Shown here piece after piece: positions 884 to 47,278 of a stretch of 64,000 nt of DNA. Location: contig NZ_CP067019.1 in assembly GCF_016599715.1 (NCBI RefSeq), positions 1,116,001-1,180,000 on the forward strand. The letters run 5' to 3'. The first letter of the stretch is position 1. Each line of letters starts with the position of its first letter. Under the pieces are notes generated by a model, which worked only from the letters and a program-made list of their open reading frames with translations, was not told where the DNA came from and did not search any database. This stretch comes from Acinetobacter sp. CS-2 (GTDB lineage: Bacteria; Pseudomonadota; Gammaproteobacteria; Pseudomonadales; Moraxellaceae). The position numbers and the translations under genes are program-made.

Positions 884-3800
884 ATGAACGCAGTAATTAA
901 AGGCGCAAAAGGCGGTAGCAAAAGCCAAAGACAACCCAAAATTGCAAACGATACAACCGCTTCAAAAACCTATGCACGCTTACAGTATGGCATGAGTGAA
1001 GGAGAAGTTGAGGGCTTAGCAAATGGCTTTAAATCAATCTTCCTTGATGACACACCAGTTGAAAGCGATAGTGGTGCAAGAAACTTTCAAGATGTCACCC
1101 TAGATTTTCGCTCAGGCACCAATGACCAGACATACATGGAAGGCTTTGAAAGCATTGCTTCTGAAGCCGCTGTTGGAGTTGAACTTAAAAGTGATACGCC
1201 TTGGGTTAAAGGGATTACCAATCTTAATCTCGATGCCGTGATTGTAAGGGTGCGTTTTGGGGCTTTAAAAAAGCAAGACCCAAGCAATGGCGATGTTTCA
1301 GGTATTGTTATTGATTACTCGATTGAAGTACAAACTGACGGTGGTGCGTGGGAGTTAATGCTTGACACCAAAATGTCAGGAAAAACTTCAGCAAATTATG
1401 AGCGTACTCACCGTATCGGCTTGCCAAAAGCCAATAATAATTGGTTGATTCGCGTCACACGTAAAACACCGAACTCAAGCTCTGAATATGTCAGCGATAA
1501 GATGTATATTCAAGCAATTACTGAAGTTATCGATCTTAAACTTACATACCCAAATACCGCAGTGATCGGCGTGCAATATGATGCTGAGACATTCTCGAAT
1601 ATTGCCAAAATCGCAGTTGATTTAAAGGGTGTAAAGATCAGAGTGCCAAGCAACTATGATCCAGTAAGCCGAACTTACATCGGGATATGGGATGGTACAT
1701 TTAAACGTGCTTATAGTAATAATCCAGCTTGGATTTACTATGACCTATGCACCAATAAGCGATATGCGCTTGGCAACCGTTTAACCGAGCAAATGATTGA
1801 TAAATGGTCTTTATATCGTTTAGCTCAATACTGCGATCAGTTAGTGCCAGACGGCAAAGGTGGTCAGGAGCCGCGTTTTACCTGCAATGTGTATATTCAA
1901 AGTGCTGAATCTGCTTTTGATATTTTAAGCAAACTAGCAGGCGTATTCCGTGCGATTTCATATTGGGACGGCAATTCAATCGTATGTGATGCTGATTTAC
2001 CACAAGATACTTATTTCACTTACACTCGCGCCAATGTCATTGATGGGCATTTTGAATATTCAGGCACCCGTGCGCGTGATCGTCACAATGCAGTCAAAGT
2101 CGCTTGGGATAACCCACAAAATCGCTATAAGACCGAATATGTATTTGTACGGGATGAAGCAGCGATTGCACGTGATCGAGGTGCAGTCAAACTGCTTGAG
2201 TTAGAGGCATGGGGTTGTACATCTGAGGGTCAGGCACAACGTGCAGGTCTTTGGGCTTTAAAATCTGAGCAGCTTGAAACCCGGACTGTGTCTTTTAAAG
2301 TTGGTCTTGATGGTTATATTCCACAGCCGGGCCGTGTCATTGAAATTGCAGACGAGCTTTTTGCTGGCCGTGCCAATGGCGGTCGTATTTCTGCTGTGAG
2401 TGCTGACCGCAAAATTATAACTTTAGATCGTGACGATGTGGTGTGTCGTGCAGGTGATCGACTGGTTGTAAATGGTGAAGATGGTAAAGCACAAGCTCGA
2501 ATCGTGTCATCCGTAAATGGTCGCAATATCACAGTCACAGTGGCGTTTGATTCTGTTGCTGCCCAGAATGTCTGGGTTGTTGATGCACAAGATTTGAAAA
2601 CTATGAAGTTTCGCGTCATGAGTATTACTCAAGACGACAAACATCAGTTCTCAATCACTGCTTTGCAATATGAATCAGCAAAATATGATGCGATTGATTT
2701 TGGTGCATTCATTGATGATCGTCCGATTTCCATTATTAATCCCACCGTTCAGGCGCCAGTCACCAATGTTTTAATTTCATCTGAAACCATGGTTCAACAA
2801 GGATTATCTATTGAAACAATGGTGATTGCTTGGGATCAGGCACAAGGTGCAACCAAGTATCAAGTTGAATGGCGCAAAGATGATGGCTCGTGGATTAAAT
2901 TGCCAATCACAGGCAGTAATTCAGTAGAAGTTCAGGGTATTTATGCGGGCAACTATGAAGCGCGTGTGATTGCATTGTCTGCGTATGATGTGGCTTCTTT
3001 GCCAACATATTCAAATCTGACAGCATTGAAAGGTAAAGCAGGAAAACCACCAAAGCTGGCTTATATCAGTGCAACAGGCATTTTGTTTGGTATGCAATTG
3101 AACTGGGGCTTTCCAGCGGTTGGGGCTTTGGATACGGCTTATACCGAGATTCGAGTTTCACCCGATGGTCAAAGCAATATTGCGGTGTTGGGGCAGTTTG
3201 CCTATCCAACCAATGCCCATACGATTCAAGGTTTACAGCCGAATTTAACCCAATATTATCAAGCTCGATTGATTGATCGGATTGGCAATATTGGCGATTG
3301 GTCGGACTGGACGCATGCGACCACTTCAGCGGATGCTTCCGATGTGCTGGATATTTTATCGGGCAAGATTACTGATTCGCAGCTACATCAAGACCTGCAA
3401 ACCAAGATTGACCGCATTGATACCGTTGATGGTGATATTGCCGACATTGTTCAAGCAGTACAGAACGTTGAAGATGGTTTGACACAAGAGCGTACTGAAC
3501 GCCAGTCAGGTGATCAGGACGTATTGAATCAGTTGACCATTTACAAAGTCAGTAATGATCAAGCAGTTGCTGCTGTGGTTGAAGAAGTTGAAACCTTAAC
3601 AACCGAGCAAGGAGCATTATCATCAAAAATTGATGGTGTGTTTGCCCAGGTGAACCCACCGATGATCGGATCAGAATCTGATTTGATCGGTAGTGAAGCA
3701 GGCTATGCCGGTGTGTGGTCAGAACAATCTGCGCGAATTGAAGGAGATATATCGCAAGCACAGCGGACTGAAACAGTACAAACCCAAGTGAATGAGAATC

Positions 3801-4753
3801 TGGCTTCAATTCAAGAAGTCTCATTGTCTGTCAATGGATTGTATGCTCAGAAGTACATCAAGCTTGATGTAAATGGCAAAGTTGCAGGTTGGGGTGGGAC
3901 CAACACAGGTAAAGAATCGGATTTCATTCTGAACTTTGATTCATTTGCGATTGGCAGCGGAAATAGTGCTGGGTATTACCCATTTATCTTTAGAAATACG
4001 CCTTACACAGATCCATTAACTGGAACAGTATTCCCAGTAGGTGCTTATCTGAAATCAGCATTTATTGATTACGCGTCGATTGATACAGCCAATATTAAAG
4101 TTCTGGCCGTAAAATCCGCGCAGATTGATGATTTAGCTGTGACTTCAGCAAAGATTAATAACGCTGCAATTACCACAGCTAAAATTAATGATGCTGCAAT
4201 TACCACAGCTAAGATTGGTGATCTTCAAGTAAGTACGCTGAAGATTCAAGATAATGCAGTAACTGTGCCTATTTATGTCAATGACACCGCCACATGGAAC
4301 AAAACGCTCACTAATGCAGAGCAAAACACGTGGATAGCCGCCAGCACAGCTACCCTATGGGGCATTAAGGCTGGTCAGCCTGTGTACTTGTTTGTAAACC
4401 GGGGTGCTGTAAATCCAAATTCCATCGATCAGTCTCAAGTTTATGCGGCTGTTCAGTACGGCTATGGACAAAATGGCTATGTGATGTGCGGCTTATTTGT
4501 AGGAGAGTCATTAAGTCGCCTTATCGGGAGTGGTAGAGGTAAAACATGGAGTTCTGGCAGTGATATTTACAATGAGGACGCTGTGTATGTTTTGAGCGAA
4601 ACTGTTATGAATCATTACTTTGTGTCCACTACAGACAACCCTACTGTATCTATTCGCTTTAAGGTGTATGGCGGCTACAACTCCAGTAGTTTCCCATGCG
4701 TAGTAAATAAACAGAATGCCGTAACGTGGTTAGCTTTAGGGGTGAAAAAATAA
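884..4753 (+). CDS. Host specificity protein J-like (tail tip / central fibre)
   Basis: A 1289-residue protein matching lambda J in size and layout. The N-terminal part (about residues 1-600, with YARLQYGMSEGEVEGLANG near residue 30) would form the tail hub. Fibronectin-like stretches follow near 620-820, then a coiled region and a C-terminal part with repeated ITTAKIND units (about residues 1080-1110) before the receptor-binding end. The family forms the tail tip and determines host range. The C-terminal 150 residues are probably the variable receptor-binding part. The start has an AAGGA upstream. Confidence 0.9.
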   Translation: MNAVIKGAKGGSKSQRQPKIANDTTASKTYARLQYGMSEGEVEGLANGFKSIFLDDTPVESDSGARNFQDVTLDFRSGTNDQTYMEGFESIASEAAVGVELKSDTPWVKGITNLNLDAVIVRVRFGALKKQDPSNGDVSGIVIDYSIEVQTDGGAWELMLDTKMSGKTSANYERTHRIGLPKANNNWLIRVTRKTPNSSSEYVSDKMYIQAITEVIDLKLTYPNTAVIGVQYDAETFSNIAKIAVDLKGVKIRVPSNYDPVSRTYIGIWDGTFKRAYSNNPAWIYYDLCTNKRYALGNRLTEQMIDKWSLYRLAQYCDQLVPDGKGGQEPRFTCNVYIQSAESAFDILSKLAGVFRAISYWDGNSIVCDADLPQDTYFTYTRANVIDGHFEYSGTRARDRHNAVKVAWDNPQNRYKTEYVFVRDEAAIARDRGAVKLLELEAWGCTSEGQAQRAGLWALKSEQLETRTVSFKVGLDGYIPQPGRVIEIADELFAGRANGGRISAVSADRKIITLDRDDVVCRAGDRLVVNGEDGKAQARIVSSVNGRNITVTVAFDSVAAQNVWVVDAQDLKTMKFRVMSITQDDKHQFSITALQYESAKYDAIDFGAFIDDRPISIINPTVQAPVTNVLISSETMVQQGLSIETMVIAWDQAQGATKYQVEWRKDDGSWIKLPITGSNSVEVQGIYAGNYEARVIALSAYDVASLPTYSNLTALKGKAGKPPKLAYISATGILFGMQLNWGFPAVGALDTAYTEIRVSPDGQSNIAVLGQFAYPTNAHTIQGLQPNLTQYYQARLIDRIGNIGDWSDWTHATTSADASDVLDILSGKITDSQLHQDLQTKIDRIDTVDGDIADIVQAVQNVEDGLTQERTERQSGDQDVLNQLTIYKVSNDQAVAAVVEEVETLTTEQGALSSKIDGVFAQVNPPMIGSESDLIGSEAGYAGVWSEQSARIEGDISQAQRTETVQTQVNENLASIQEVSLSVNGLYAQKYIKLDVNGKVAGWGGTNTGKESDFILNFDSFAIGSGNSAGYYPFIFRNTPYTDPLTGTVFPVGAYLKSAFIDYASIDTANIKVLAVKSAQIDDLAVTSAKINNAAITTAKINDAAITTAKIGDLQVSTLKIQDNAVTVPIYVNDTATWNKTLTNAEQNTWIAASTATLWGIKAGQPVYLFVNRGAVNPNSIDQSQVYAAVQYGYGQNGYVMCGLFVGESLSRLIGSGRGKTWSSGSDIYNEDAVYVLSETVMNHYFVSTTDNPTVSIRFKVYGGYNSSSFPCVVNKQNAVTWLALGVKK

Positions 4754-5337
4754 TGAAATTTTACACAAGTATGTTGTTAATTTCGGAAATGGGTCAAGTG
4801 CTTACCAATTATAAGGGTAAATTTGATGATGATGATGTTGCCTCTCTGAAAGGTAGCATCGACCCATCTGTAACTGTACTTCTAAATGTACAACCACCGG
4901 AAGAACAGTGTTTTTACGATCATGTTTCAGAGACCTTTGTTCGGCTTCCTGAGCAGCCGTCGCAAAATCATATTTTTGATTTTAAAATCAAAACTTGGCT
5001 TGATGCTCGATCAATTGCTGAAATCAAAGAGCAAAAATGGTCTGAAATTAAATCACAGCGTGATCAGCTAGAGTTTGGAGGCTTTGAGTTTGAAGGCAAT
5101 ATATATGATTCAGATCAGGTATCACAAGGACGAATCCTTGGTGCTGCATCCGCTGGTTTAAGTCAGGTATGGACCTTGGCTGATAATACAATCGTCAATC
5201 TCACTGCAGAGCAACTGGTTCAGCTTTATCAGGCATTACAAATCCATATCGCAATCGCACATGAGCGCGGGCGAACAGCTCGGGAAGCGATAATGTCCGC
5301 AACCACGAAAGAAGATGTTGATGCTGTAACGCTATAA
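4753..5337 (+). CDS. DUF4376 domain protein (tail-tip associated)
   Basis: A 194-residue protein whose C-terminal half (LEFGGFEFEGNIYDSD, then AHERGRTAREAIMSATT) matches the DUF4376 pattern found behind phage tail fibres. The N-terminal half is unrelated to anything I can name. I chose the ATG that overlaps the stop of the J-like gene (TAATG) because AGGGG lies at the right distance. The upstream in-frame GTG would add nine residues inside J. It is probably a chaperone or accessory of the tip protein, which is inferred from position. Confidence 0.75.
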   Translation: MKFYTSMLLISEMGQVLTNYKGKFDDDDVASLKGSIDPSVTVLLNVQPPEEQCFYDHVSETFVRLPEQPSQNHIFDFKIKTWLDARSIAEIKEQKWSEIKSQRDQLEFGGFEFEGNIYDSDQVSQGRILGAASAGLSQVWTLADNTIVNLTAEQLVQLYQALQIHIAIAHERGRTAREAIMSATTKEDVDAVTL

Positions 5338-17597: not shown

Positions 17598-17673
17598 TGG
17601 CTCTTCCACCTGGGCTCGAACCAGGGACCTGCGGATTAACAGTCCGTCGCTCTACCGACTGAGCTATGGAAGA
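17598..17673 (-). tRNA. tRNA-Asn (GUU), copy 2, variant acceptor
   Basis: It is identical to the other copies in the D, anticodon and T arms. The acceptor is TCTTCCA / TGGAAGA instead of TCTCCAA / TTGGAGA, with compensating changes on both strands, so the stem still pairs perfectly. CCA is encoded. It lies five bases from copy 3 and is transcribed with it. Confidence 0.97.
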
Positions 17674-17678
17674 ATAGA

Positions 17679-17754
17679 TGGCTCTCCAACCTGGGCTCGA
17701 ACCAGGGACCTGCGGATTAACAGTCCGTCGCTCTACCGACTGAGCTATTGGAGA
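17679..17754 (-). tRNA. tRNA-Asn (GUU), copy 3
   Basis: The sequence is identical to copy 1 over the whole cloverleaf, with encoded CCA. It is the first gene of a two-tRNA transcript. Confidence 0.97.
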
Positions 17755-17765
17755 ATCTGATGCGC

Positions 17766-40590: not shown

Positions 40591-40656
40591 ATTTAGTATT
40601 TACTAAATATTTAGTCAATAGTTTTGCTAAATAAATTTAGTAAAATATTTAGTAAA
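40591..40656. promoter_or_regulatory. Operator region of the leftward operon
   Basis: A perfect 18-base dyad (ATTTAGTA, TT, TACTAAAT) at 40591-40608 is followed by a near-perfect one (TTTGCTAAAT with ATTTAGTAAA) at 40622-40645 and a further half-site to 40656. Very similar sites lie in the repressor/Cro region. It lies before the leftward operon (start 40501) and a rightward small gene (start 40712). Confidence 0.75.
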
Positions 40657-40667
40657 TGATAATATAG

Positions 40668-43740: not shown

Positions 43741-43741
43741 C

Positions 43742-45574
43742 GTGTGCCGCAGCAAGCGGCGTAAGAGATGAGGGTATGGCCCCTCGCTATCGGCTTGCAG
43801 GAGCAGGTAGCAAACCACCATAAGCGGCTTGGATCAAAAGTCCCGGTCGTGAGCGTTATGGAAAAGGCATCGTAGAGATGTCAGGTAAGAATTAGGAAGG
43901 CGAACAACAGTGAACTGCCGTTCAAGTGTCGAAAGTACTCAAATGACATCAAAACCGGGGATGGAAGTTACCCCGCGATTAGTTTGGCCGTTACCTGCTT
44001 ACGGGCCATTCGGTGTCCGGCGTAGAGGCAGCGCGATCCTAATTCAGGCTCTTACGTTGAACTGCGGGAACCTTCGGTGGCGATGTCAAGCGAAAGGCAC
44101 AAGCTCAAAAGGCAAGGCTGATAATAGCAATGCGTCACCAAGGGGCGGAGCAACTCGTAGTAGTGTTGAAGTTACTGTAATGGTAATGGAGCGAAGGGGT
44201 TGCATTATCCAGGTCTACGGATTTGTCAACTGTGCAAGCAGGAGGAGCAAAACTTTATGACCAAACCATTTAACATTCCTAAAGCGTTAATCTGGGAGGC
44301 ATTTAAAAAAGTCAAAGAGAATGGTGGCGCTCCAGGCGTTGATCATGAATCTATTGAGCAATTCGAAAAGCATTTAAAGAACAACCTATACAAACTATGG
44401 AATCGACTTTGTTCTGGCAGTTATTTTCCACCGCCAGTTAAGGCTGTTCCGATTCCAAAGAAGTCAGGTGGCGTGCGTATACTAGGTATTCCAACAGTTG
44501 CAGATCGAGTCGCGCAAACAGCAGTTAAGCTCTTATTAGAGCCGAAAATTGATCCATTATTTCATCCAAACTCATATGGATATCGTCCGGGGCGTTCTGC
44601 CCATGATGCAATTGCGATAGTGAGGAGACGAAGTTGGGATTATGACTGGGTTGTGGAATTTGATATCAAAGGTCTCTTTGATAACATCGACCATGATTTA
44701 CTCATGCGTGCACTCAAGAAACACTGTGAAATTCCATGGATTCTTTTATATGTGCAACGTTGGTTAAAAGCACCAATGCAACACATAAATGGCCATCTTT
44801 TAGAAAGGAATCGCGGCACACCACAAGGTGGTGTTGTGAGTCCTTTATTGGCGAATTTATTTATGCATTATGCTTTTGATATGTGGATTACGAAACATCT
44901 TCAAAGTGTACGGTTCTGCCGTTATGCAGATGATGGCGTAATTCATTGTCGGAGTTTATCTCAAGCCAAACTTGTTTTACAAAAGATCGATGCACGATTT
45001 CGTGAATGTGGTCTCGAATTGCATCCAGACAAGACAAAGATTGTTTATTGCCAAGATATTAATCGTCGTAAAGCATATCCCGATGTTCAATTTACTTTTC
45101 TCGGGTACACGTTTAGGCCCCGTAAGGCTGTGGACAAGTATAAAAGAGTTTATGTAAATTTCTCTCCTGCAGTCAGTCGTGATGCACTTAAAGCAATGCG
45201 ACAGACTATTCGGAAATGGCATCTACATCTGATGTGTAATCGCGAATTAAGTGATTTATCTGCAATATTCAATCCAATTCTTCAAGGTTGGCAGCAATAC
45301 TATGGTCGATTCCATGGTTCAGCAATGTCAGCGATCTGGCAACACATGAATGCTTATCTTATACGCTGGATGAGGCGTAAGTATAAAAACTTGGCCCGTC
45401 ATAAAAGACGGGCTAGATATGCCTTAGGGCGACTTGCGCGTGATTTTCCAAATGCCTTTGTGCACTGGAAAATGGGATGTTTACCATCGGTTGGATAATG
45501 GGAGCCGGATGAGCTGAGAGGTTCATGTCCGGTTCTGCGAGGGGCTAAGGGTGAAATTCCCTTGGTCTACTCAC
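43742..45574 (+). mobile_element. Group II intron with maturase, inserted behind a terminator
   Basis: The intron starts with GTGTG directly after the terminator T run. Domain V is at 45502-45535 (GAGCCGGATGAGC stem, GAGA loop, two-base bulge, 34 bases). Domain VI follows with a bulged A near 45569 and the intron ends near TCAC at 45574 (uncertain by two bases). About 500 bases of structured RNA (domains I-III) precede the reverse transcriptase gene in domain IV. Insertion right behind a terminator is the hallmark of class C introns. The maturase has no endonuclease domain, which also fits. Confidence 0.92.
44257..45498 (+). CDS. ltrA: Group II intron reverse transcriptase / maturase
   Basis: A 413-residue protein with reverse transcriptase blocks: GVRILGIPTVADRVAQ, NSYGYRPGRSAHDA, FDIKGLFDNIDHDLL, GTPQGGVVSPLLANL and the active-site YADD in FCRYADDGVI. 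A maturase (X) domain follows (NPILQGWQQYYGRF). No HNH endonuclease domain follows; the protein ends in MGCLPSVG. AGGAGG precedes ATG 44257. It splices its own intron and drives its mobility. Confidence 0.96.
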   Translation: MTKPFNIPKALIWEAFKKVKENGGAPGVDHESIEQFEKHLKNNLYKLWNRLCSGSYFPPPVKAVPIPKKSGGVRILGIPTVADRVAQTAVKLLLEPKIDPLFHPNSYGYRPGRSAHDAIAIVRRRSWDYDWVVEFDIKGLFDNIDHDLLMRALKKHCEIPWILLYVQRWLKAPMQHINGHLLERNRGTPQGGVVSPLLANLFMHYAFDMWITKHLQSVRFCRYADDGVIHCRSLSQAKLVLQKIDARFRECGLELHPDKTKIVYCQDINRRKAYPDVQFTFLGYTFRPRKAVDKYKRVYVNFSPAVSRDALKAMRQTIRKWHLHLMCNRELSDLSAIFNPILQGWQQYYGRFHGSAMSAIWQHMNAYLIRWMRRKYKNLARHKRRARYALGRLARDFPNAFVHWKMGCLPSVG

Positions 45575-45605
45575 CCTAATTCAAAACACTTGCGGGGTTT
45601 CAAAT

Positions 45606-46526
45606 ATGAAAACAAATTTAGCACATAAGCAGGGGATAGACAACGAAATATCGTTACACCCATCCACTGTTAAAAAATTAGAGCGACAAGCTATGTCGAA
45701 GAAAGATGAGGGGTACTCGCCTTTACCTAATTTCATCTGTGATGATGGGTATTTAGCCGTACTAAACGGTGATGCAATTAAATGTATCGTGCTCTTGAAT
45801 AGACACATTAAGGGATTTCACCTTGAGCAAAAAGCGATGGGTGAGGTTTTAATAATGAAGATCACCGGAATTAAGGATAAAAGAACCGTACGCAAATGCA
45901 TGGCTGAATTGGCTAAATTCCAGCTAATCAGCATCACCAAATCAAGGGGCAAAAGTAGCACCTACACTTTAACTTTAGATGATCGAATTTCTATTGAAGA
46001 TGTAGCATCAAATGTAACTACTTCTAATGCATGTACATTAAATGCAGTTACATCTCATGTCACCACACCAGTGACATCAAATGCTACTACACCAGTAGCA
46101 TCAAATGTAACCACCACCAGTGACATCAAATGTCACTCTGTAAAAGAAATAGATTTAAAAGAAAATATTAAAGAAAACTTTAAAGAGAGTAACGCGCAAG
46201 AAAATTCAGTCGATGCAGTTTTAAATCTCTGGACACCAGATCTCCACTCTTTGAATTCTTGGTTGCAAAGATCAGGCGAAATGCCAATGACTCAAGAACT
46301 GGCAAACCAAGTTTTACTTGAAATCAATGCTCATTACGAACCACGTTTGAAATCAGGTCAACTTACTGACAGCCAGATGTATGCCAACTTTGTGAAGTGG
46401 GTGAAACGTGGTTACAAGCCTAAAGCTCAATCAAAAACAAATCTGAACGTCAACGATGCATGGGAAGGCATTCCTCAATTCCAAGGCCATGTTGAGCCAG
46501 TTGAAATACCGGAGGATTTTGTATGA
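45606..46526 (+). CDS. Replication initiator, DnaT-like C-terminus
   Basis: A 306-residue replication protein. The N-terminal part (about 35-120, LPNFICDDGYLAVLNGDAIKCIVLLNRHIKG then KDKRTVRKCMAELAKFQL) looks like a winged-helix origin-binding domain. A low-complexity Thr/Ser/Asn/Val stretch (about 133-178) is encoded by the iterons. The C-terminal part (WLQRSGEMPMTQELANQVLLEI, MYANFVKWVKRGY) resembles DnaT. With the DnaC-like gene downstream it would load helicase, like lambda O with P. Confidence 0.85.
   Translation: MKTNLAHKQGIDNEISLHPSTVKKLERQAMSKKDEGYSPLPNFICDDGYLAVLNGDAIKCIVLLNRHIKGFHLEQKAMGEVLIMKITGIKDKRTVRKCMAELAKFQLISITKSRGKSSTYTLTLDDRISIEDVASNVTTSNACTLNAVTSHVTTPVTSNATTPVASNVTTTSDIKCHSVKEIDLKENIKENFKESNAQENSVDAVLNLWTPDLHSLNSWLQRSGEMPMTQELANQVLLEINAHYEPRLKSGQLTDSQMYANFVKWVKRGYKPKAQSKTNLNVNDAWEGIPQFQGHVEPVEIPEDFV
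46002..46190 (+). other. Candidate prophage replication origin with iterons
   Basis: Copies of a 17-base iteron, consensus GT(G/A)(A/G)CATCAAATG(T/C)(C/A)AC, start at 46002, 46047, 46071, 46095 and 46120, with a degenerate copy between the first two. Spacing is 24-25 bases. The last copy, GTGACAT, CAA, ATGTCAC, is a perfect dyad. They lie in the coding region of the initiator and are followed by an AT- and purine-rich stretch (46140-46190). This mirrors the lambda origin in gene O. Confidence 0.75.
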
Positions 46527-47278
46527 ACGCCATGATCTCAATGAAATTTCAACAGGTACAGGCTTACTGCGCTGAACACAAAATTCAAAAAGTTCAAGCC
46601 GGACCTAATCAAATCTGTCCTGAGTGTGCAAAGAACCTGGTGAACAAGAACAACCAGGAGCATCAGGAATCTGTAAACAAGATGGTCCGTGAGTTGCACT
46701 TTGCAGGTGCCATGATTCCAGAGCGTCACAAGGATTCAGGCTTTAGAAATTACAACACGAATTTTGCTGGACAATCGAATGCCCTGAACAACTGTGTTGA
46801 GTTCTCAAGAGTCATGATTGCTGGTCAAAAGCGCAATTTCATCATGTCTGGTAAGACAGGTACAGGTAAAACCCATTTGAGCTGTGCGATAGCCAGAACG
46901 CTTTTGAACAAGGGAATTTATGTTCGCTATATCACTTCGGAAGATATGGCTAATGATATTGCCAATGCATGGAAGAGAGAGGCAAATGACAGTGAATCAA
47001 ACGCAATCTACCGGTTCACTGAGTATGACTTGCTGATCCTGGATGAATACGGCCTTCATGATCGTCATGAGAATCGCCTGCAACTGATCCACAAGGTTTT
47101 ATATTCACGCTATGACGCGGGTAAACCGACCATGCTGATTTCAAATCTTACATTGGCTGAATTGCAGAAGGATTTAGGGGATCGTCTTTGGTCTCGTTTT
47201 CAACATGATGGATTAACACTGGTTGAGTGTAATTGGGTGGATCAGCGTTTAGGGAAAAGCGCAGGGGGTGGGGTGTGA
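46523..47278 (+). CDS. DnaC-like helicase loader ATPase
   Basis: A 251-residue AAA+ ATPase. An N-terminal zinc-ribbon-like CPECAK precedes Walker A SGKTGTGKTHLS (about residue 110) and Walker B LLILDEYG. Sensor-type SNLTLAEL follows. The ATG overlaps the initiator stop by 4 bases. It probably loads host DnaB at the phage origin. Confidence 0.92.
   Translation: MNAMISMKFQQVQAYCAEHKIQKVQAGPNQICPECAKNLVNKNNQEHQESVNKMVRELHFAGAMIPERHKDSGFRNYNTNFAGQSNALNNCVEFSRVMIAGQKRNFIMSGKTGTGKTHLSCAIARTLLNKGIYVRYITSEDMANDIANAWKREANDSESNAIYRFTEYDLLILDEYGLHDRHENRLQLIHKVLYSRYDAGKPTMLISNLTLAELQKDLGDRLWSRFQHDGLTLVECNWVDQRLGKSAGGGV

Follow-up and report, generated by a model that had tools for sequence, protein, structure and literature searches.

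A probable lambda-type replication origin within a prophage initiator gene, and initiator tails that track the type of helicase loader

Around the initiator gene at 45606..46526 of the window (the whole 64-kb stretch of DNA that was analyzed), our results very probably identify a replication module, comprising the origin and the initiation genes, of a temperate phage that currently resides as a prophage in an Acinetobacter-type chromosome, with sequence features predicted to serve binding, melting, and helicase loading. While this layout proved to be ordinary for the O-like initiator family to which the gene belongs, two aspects are new, specifically the modularity of the initiator gene and a rule whereby the type of motif in the initiator tail tracks the type of loader encoded next to it.

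The initiator gene and its neighbors

The features on which the argument rests, all on the + strand, are as follows.

45606..46526, +, lambda-O-like replication initiator gene, 306 aa (open reading frame; PHROG matches)
45723..45980, +, winged-helix DNA-binding domain, about residues 40-125
46002..46018, +, iteron 1, GTAGCATCAAATGTAAC
46032..46048, +, degenerate iteron, 30 bp past iteron 1 (seen by eye; relatives have a clear copy at the same offset)
46047..46063, +, iteron 2, GTTACATCTCATGTCAC
46071..46087, +, iteron 3, GTGACATCAAATGCTAC
46095..46111, +, iteron 4, GTAGCATCAAATGTAAC
46120..46136, +, iteron 5, perfect 7+3+7 dyad GTGACATCAAATGTCAC, in a reading frame unlike that of the others
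46137..46190, +, AT-rich stretch, presumed unwinding element
46209..46406, +, helical C-domain, about residues 202-267 (AF2 models)
46446..46463, +, codons of the tail motif NVNDAW, residues 281-286 (associated with DnaC-like loaders; kept as protein, with varying codons)
46511..46515, +, GGAGG, presumed loader ribosome-binding site, read from the sequence, within the final codons of the initiator (IPEDFV)
46523..47278, +, DnaC-like AAA+ helicase loader, whose start overlaps the initiator stop (phrog_50, E 2.1e-63)

The initiator matched phrog_678 (E 3e-20) and phrog_18020 (E 2.5e-18), both labeled “replication initiation O-like”, and the Phage_rep_O domain (PF04492) was matched at E<=0.01 by all 52 of the 52 relatives in alignment A3. 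The match of the window initiator itself to PF04492 (E 0.0077) was under the Pfam cut-off, as was its match to TIGR01610 (E 0.0031), a model whose cut-off is cleared by its relative L044 (53.7 vs 45.5 bits). The downstream gene is predicted to encode an AAA+ ATPase homologous to DnaC-type loaders, its product being 27% identical to E. coli DnaC over 230 positions (E 4e-27, BLASTP), and a CI-like repressor gene lies upstream of the initiator on the opposite strand. Where relatives were named, Acinetobacter was the source in 16 of 16 loci, and one Acinetobacter phage and one Alcaligenes phage were also found, which points to Acinetobacter as the probable host. A PDB sequence search with the single initiator protein returned no match, and searches of the PDB with initiator profiles returned chance-like matches only, the best being an acyl carrier protein (E 0.008-0.011).

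Iteron array and AT-rich stretch

The first-pass annotation had described five clear 17-bp iterons and a degenerate copy within the initiator gene, the last copy being a perfect dyad, followed by an AT-rich stretch. All of these were found where they had been placed, the dyad having 7+3+7 architecture and the six 50-mers with the highest AT content in the gene (84%) starting at 46135-46143, beside the last iteron. The spacing of 24-25 bp that it gave holds for the last four copies, but not for the first interval of 45 bp or for the degenerate copy 30 bp after the first; the steps between the five clear iterons are 45, 24, 24, and 25 bp. In close relatives, the steps are 30, 15, 24, 24, and 25 bp, such that a clear copy stands where the window has its degenerate one. 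With up to two mismatches, GTNACATCAAATGTNAC was matched six times in the 64-kb window (five places, one of them matched on both strands), always inside the iteron segment, against a chance level of 0.30 on average and 2 at most in 100 dinucleotide shuffles. Further, the repeat score of the gene was 25 for 17-mers, compared with no more than 21 in 100 synonymous-codon shuffles, and 23 for 15-mers, compared with no more than 16 in 40 such shuffles. The change of frame at the last iteron is retained in nine listed close relatives. Relatives with the same protein and no repeats, named in the first-pass annotation as counter-evidence, were not found, as the array is present in all 10 listed genes of at least 74% identity.

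The same segment stands out by its codons. Codons were compared at conserved residues among 22 genes of at least 74% identity, which represent 12 distinct DNAs (including the window's own copy). Codon identity was 0.60 for the DNA-binding domain and 0.73 for the C-domain, as against 0.90 for the iteron block and 1.00 for the AT-rich stretch. None of the 184 30-codon windows elsewhere matched the iteron block (best, 0.886), and in the AT-rich stretch all 17 of the scored codons were identical in every compared relative that retained the residue. Because the repeat score exceeds that of synonymous shuffles, the last iteron is off-frame, and the codons are frozen, selection appears to act on the DNA of the iterons and AT-rich stretch, not on the protein that they encode, in line with the earlier proposal that the linker peptide is a by-product of the DNA repeats.

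By analogy with lambda, the winged-helix domain would bind the 17-bp dyads as dimers, the array would wrap into an O-some-like complex, and the AT-rich stretch beside the last iteron would melt. The C-domain and the tail, the latter being a putative loader docking site, may then bring in the DnaC-like loader, which, again judging from lambda, could load DnaB, the helicase of the host, onto the strand thus exposed.

Iteron arrays across the initiator family

A survey of 215 initiator open reading frames, from which 139 distinct genes free of N runs were tested, revealed three or more clustered 15-mer copies in 130 genes. Arrays outscored every one of 30 synonymous shuffles in 120 of the 139, and 113 of the 130 array genes had copies in two or more frames. 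Of the 126 distinct downstream genes, 80 were tested, and one had an array. The nine initiators with fewer than three copies are counted as such by a detector that misses some arrays, since copies are visible by eye in L064, which it scored below three clustered copies. The commonest step was 24 bp, with 204 of at least 444 steps (the 14 commonest values being counted), followed by 25 (48), 33 (40), 19 (34), 40 (28), and 23 bp (19), and irregular steps were common. The iteron sequence varies by subfamily (GTNACATCAAATGTNAC, GGGACTAGTACC, ACTCCCAAAAATGGGG, AGTACTAATAATCCG, CTAGTAAAAAT, and others). In a set of 80 genes, less 3 with N runs and 11 with fewer than three clustered copies, dyad symmetry was evident at p<=0.05 in 57 of the 66 arrays; in the other nine p exceeded 0.05, and seven of these belong to the GGGGACTACTCCC and AGTACTAATAATCC classes. 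The lambda O gene, used as a control, scored 17 against a maximum of 6 in 30 shuffles, with steps of 20, 24, and 23 bp.

Sequence comparison thus places the window origin as a well-supported lambda-type member of an O-like initiator family in which the in-gene iteron layout appears to be ordinary. The first-pass annotation was right to invoke a lambda-type origin inside the initiator gene and a likeness to lambda gene O, given PF04492 in all aligned relatives, the array, and a lambda control with the same layout. Its view of the combination as unusual is not supported, given the arrays in 130 of 139 distinct family genes. Within the family, DNA-binding domains are naturally paired with iteron sequences many times over on similar geometry (a 24-bp step being commonest), making it useful for working out a recognition code.

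Two other accounts of the repeats deserve weighing. That they arise as a by-product of a Thr/Val/Ser-rich linker selected as protein might be argued from the four of five copies that share one frame, encoding V(A/T)S(N/H)(V/A)T, and from relatives that keep a single frame throughout, for example, the nine copies of L046. However, the last copy is off-frame and most array genes use more than one frame, which largely refutes the idea; moreover, frames rotate with 22-23 bp steps in L074, L020, and L030, most arrays outscore every synonymous shuffle, synonymous sites are frozen, and other iteron classes encode unrelated peptides, all of which renders a protein-selected linker extremely improbable. 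It is also highly unlikely, albeit a shade less so, that the dyads are transcription operators for the initiator or another phage regulator and not an origin: winged-helix-bound dyads can be operators, yet these lie inside the initiator gene and adjoin its most AT-rich stretch and the loader gene, as in lambda. An origin within the initiator gene remains our preferred reading.

Outside the family, in-gene arrays beside DnaC-like loaders are not universal. Twelve phage regions with DnaC-like loaders, plus Rac, served as outgroups, and nine of their initiators were tested for arrays. Arrays above all 30 shuffles were present in three (L219, L221, and L226) and absent from six (L216, L217, L223, L224, L227, and L228). 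Among the latter, L227 has three copies at 24-bp steps that tie with the best shuffle, and L217 combines an Acinetobacter-type tail with the absence of an in-gene array.

Comparison with known systems

Lambda O, together with the O proteins of Stx phages, is among the nearest known counterparts. Residues 15-162 of lambda O match L049 (30% identity, E 9e-13), and the in-gene iterons of lambda are part of its replication origin (PMC7466680). As here, the lambda iterons (18 bp, at the steps given above) lie inside the initiator gene in changing frames, an A-rich AT stretch comes directly past them, and the next gene serves replication. The two differ in that the window loader is DnaC-like whereas that of lambda is P, in the C-domain and iteron sequence, which are unlike, and in copy number (five plus one in the window, four in lambda).

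Structural matches of the window N-domain include 4pql, 4pt7 (“Structure of initiator”), and 5kbj (“Structure of Rep-DNA complex”), which we take to be RepA_N proteins; the RepA_N domain itself gave no match for the window initiator in a Pfam scan at E<=0.1. In the RepA_N system of pSK41, PMC5703833 describes origin boxes in the middle of the rep gene, a winged-helix N-domain, a dispensable linker encoded by the origin, and a separate C-domain, and it reports that pPR9 differs from pSK41 in a ~500-bp block of N-domain plus origin, with C-domains >97% identical. The central in-gene origin, origin-encoded linker, and separate C-domain of pSK41 and pPR9 have counterparts in the window, as may their winged-helix N-domain, although RepA_N initiators, unlike that of the window, belong to Gram-positive plasmids and have a C-domain that binds primase. 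Both pPR9 and lambda O are precedents for the block exchange described below.

Exchange of blocks within the initiator gene

Across 42 nonredundant arrays of the 66 (762 pairs), iteron similarity correlated with DNA-binding-domain identity at rho 0.53 and with C-domain identity at rho 0.25 (Mantel 0.547 vs <=0.226 in 500 permutations), a correlation with the DNA-binding domain that is partly plain linkage because both sit in one gene. Similar DNA-binding domains do not always bring similar iterons: those of L013 and L014 are 62-69% identical to those of L001, L003, and L005, with iteron similarity of just 0.45-0.66, where unrelated pairs have about 0.5.

Individual pairs exemplify the exchange. 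Nearly identical C-domains are joined to divergent DNA-binding domains in L010/L003 (identities of 0.97 and 0.34, respectively), L063/L055 (1.00 and 0.42), and L065/L043 (0.95 and 0.24), and the converse is found in L080/L068, where the DNA-binding domain (0.89) and iterons (0.89) agree and the C-domain (0.26) does not. The window protein is 99% identical over residues 190-275 to P0051, which has a different DNA-binding domain. Further, the DNA of L038, L198, L182, and L039, of other iteron classes, is 37-60% identical to that of the window before 46146, just past the last iteron, and 77-85% identical beyond it; therefore, the AT-rich stretch travels with the C-domain. The blocks that the sequences show to be exchanged are the DNA-binding domain with the iterons, the AT-rich stretch with the C-domain, and the tail with the loader. 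This modularity of the initiator gene is a new part of the present findings.

C-terminal tails and the loader partner

When 138 distinct initiators were grouped by their downstream gene, the motif (N/D)VNxxW near the end was present in 103 of the 105 followed by a DnaC-like gene, in none of the 22 followed by a DnaB-like helicase (20 of which end in GDW), and in none of the 5 followed by a P-like gene. The remaining 6 were cut off or without a recognized neighbor; L049 and L008 among them carry the motif, and in L049, scored as lacking a partner, an extra open reading frame (3365-4301) follows the initiator and precedes a DnaC-like loader (4302-5027). As for the two exceptions, L025 has QVNAAW, and the motif codons of L209 lie past the stop of the open reading frame, in another frame. 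Among 1027 non-initiator open reading frames, the motif occurred in two (L084 and L217), both of which are themselves initiator-like, though divergent, and lie upstream of a DnaC-like loader. L014, which has no motif and a P-like partner, shares C-domain DNA with L081 (about 270 bp) and L170 (about 330 bp), both with the motif and a DnaC-like start downstream; identity is 93-100% per 30-base window and falls away about 80 bp before the L014 stop. The DNA-binding domains of L081 and L014 are 0.14 identical.

That the motif type tracks the loader type is the novel part, and it suggests that the initiator tail is a putative loader-docking peptide. Among the papers listed from an open-licence library, none dealt with a loader-docking tail, whether in DnaT or in phage initiators, or with in-gene iterons of these Acinetobacter prophages. 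A scan with the Skulduggery loader returned no matches.

Tails beyond Acinetobacter and the relation to DnaT

A tail of the form (V/I)NxxSxPDxx(I/V)PxGFRG ends Rac YdaU, the initiators of E. coli phage PhiR5_2 and Klebsiella phage Kp4885-1, and DnaT, all of which precede DnaC-type genes that are mutually 48-85% identical. In the E. coli dnaT-dnaC and Rac ydaU-ydaV pairs, specifically, a protein with the tail VNTVSxPDSxIPPGFRG lies directly upstream of a DnaC-type gene; unlike the window gene, Rac ydaU has no in-gene array above shuffles. The BLAST link is confined to the last 20 residues for YdaU and PhiR5_2, to the last 24 for DnaT and PhiR5_2, and to the last 45 for DnaT and Kp4885-1, and YdaU and DnaT have about 80 C-terminal residues in common (40%, E 7e-8). 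The N-domain of PhiR5_2 is 62% identical (159 positions) to that of Acinetobacter phage A1626.2, and their tails differ, each being of the type of its own loader clade.

At 80 loci with a Kp4885-type loader, the 57 distinct initiators fall into two bodies (39 and 18) with no BLAST link between them. Of the 57, 39 conform to the strict (V/I)N pattern, as many as the larger body group contains; in the group of 18, PN mostly replaces (V/I)N, and NxxS and FRG are kept in 56 of the 57 (list read by eye). Other tails accompany the 15b-type loader clade (55 loci, 44 distinct), with KDYG(Q/K)T in 29 of the 44, as counted from the list, and further tail types occur in the outgroup initiators L218, L219, L221, L224, L226, L227, and L228. 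The Rac-type tail set is redundant, one sequence making up 71 of its 78 tails.

We judge it an even bet that the last ~25 residues serve these initiators as a docking peptide, specific to the loader and exchanged along with it, and that DnaT bears one of the same kind (RDVNTVSEPDSQIPPGFRG). The tail might instead dock nothing, its motif hitch-hiking with the loader gene or reflecting translational signals, which we regard as possible but somewhat doubtful. The motif lies about 60-77 bp before the loader start, such that crossovers would seldom part the two, and the final IPEDF or GFRG codons hold the presumed ribosome-binding site of the loader; linkage and translation signals thus explain part of the pattern. 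However, the VN core is constant as protein while its valine codons vary (GTG 41, GTC 35, GTA 22, and GTT 3; n=101), 31 of 79 identical residue pairs in the four enterobacterial tails have a codon in common, and similar tails close proteins whose bodies are unlinked by BLAST. If the docking peptide is real, the tail of DnaT, and not its N-domain alone, would recruit DnaB/DnaC in replication restart, and DnaT would be related through its tail to phage initiators with differing DNA-binding parts. DnaT is not known to be a sequence-specific origin binder. The tail rule would also turn DnaB/DnaC recruitment by an initiator or by DnaT into a simple short-peptide test. A 2026 paper on preprimosome structure calls this recruitment step unknown and suggests the DnaT N-domain (PMC13377028).

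The DnaT-like C-terminus that the first-pass annotation had proposed is not supported as stated: only the last ~25 residues recall DnaT, and, unlike YdaU, the window C-domain is not detectably related to it. Specifically, a DnaT-like fold of the C-domain is not supported, profile-profile comparison by hhalign having returned a probability of 0.4% against one DnaT and 0.3% against 20 DnaTs. The DnaT C-terminal domain (PF17948) was matched by 9 of 36 members, all below threshold (best E 0.0036), with the window C-domain reaching 12.5 bits against a cut-off of 25. The C-domain model has a mean pLDDT of 67, and the top Foldseek E-value of 0.51 was taken as noise; the structure search gave no recognized fold and no DnaT fold among the matches listed, which excludes nothing.

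Additional observations

Initiators ending in GDW in place of the NVNxxW/IPEDF tail, beside a DnaB-like helicase, include L005, L006, L012, L018, L020, L060, L066, and others, and the C-domains of L005, L067, L012, L018, and L020 are 54-61% identical to that of the window despite the GDW/DnaB-like context. Another initiator region is present twice on one contig of the window's genome (L066 and L067, at about 1081500 and 1283500). Its copies, which have GTAACATCAAATGATAC iterons and are partnered by a DnaB-like helicase, are separated by about 200 kb and show 100% identity across 3916 bp.

Within the window, a group II intron (about 43741-45577; maturase open reading frame 44200-45498) ends 28 bp before the initiator start, and its site is empty in the relatives L089, L107, and L109. 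An 11-bp AT-rich repeat, TATTTAGTAAA, recurs about five times at 40597-40657, and a 30-bp tandem repeat (2.4 copies) lies at 4146-4216. Between 16919 and 21042 lie four tRNA genes whose Rfam scores are almost equal, and an 81-bp unit containing a tRNA gene is duplicated in tandem at 17598-17756.
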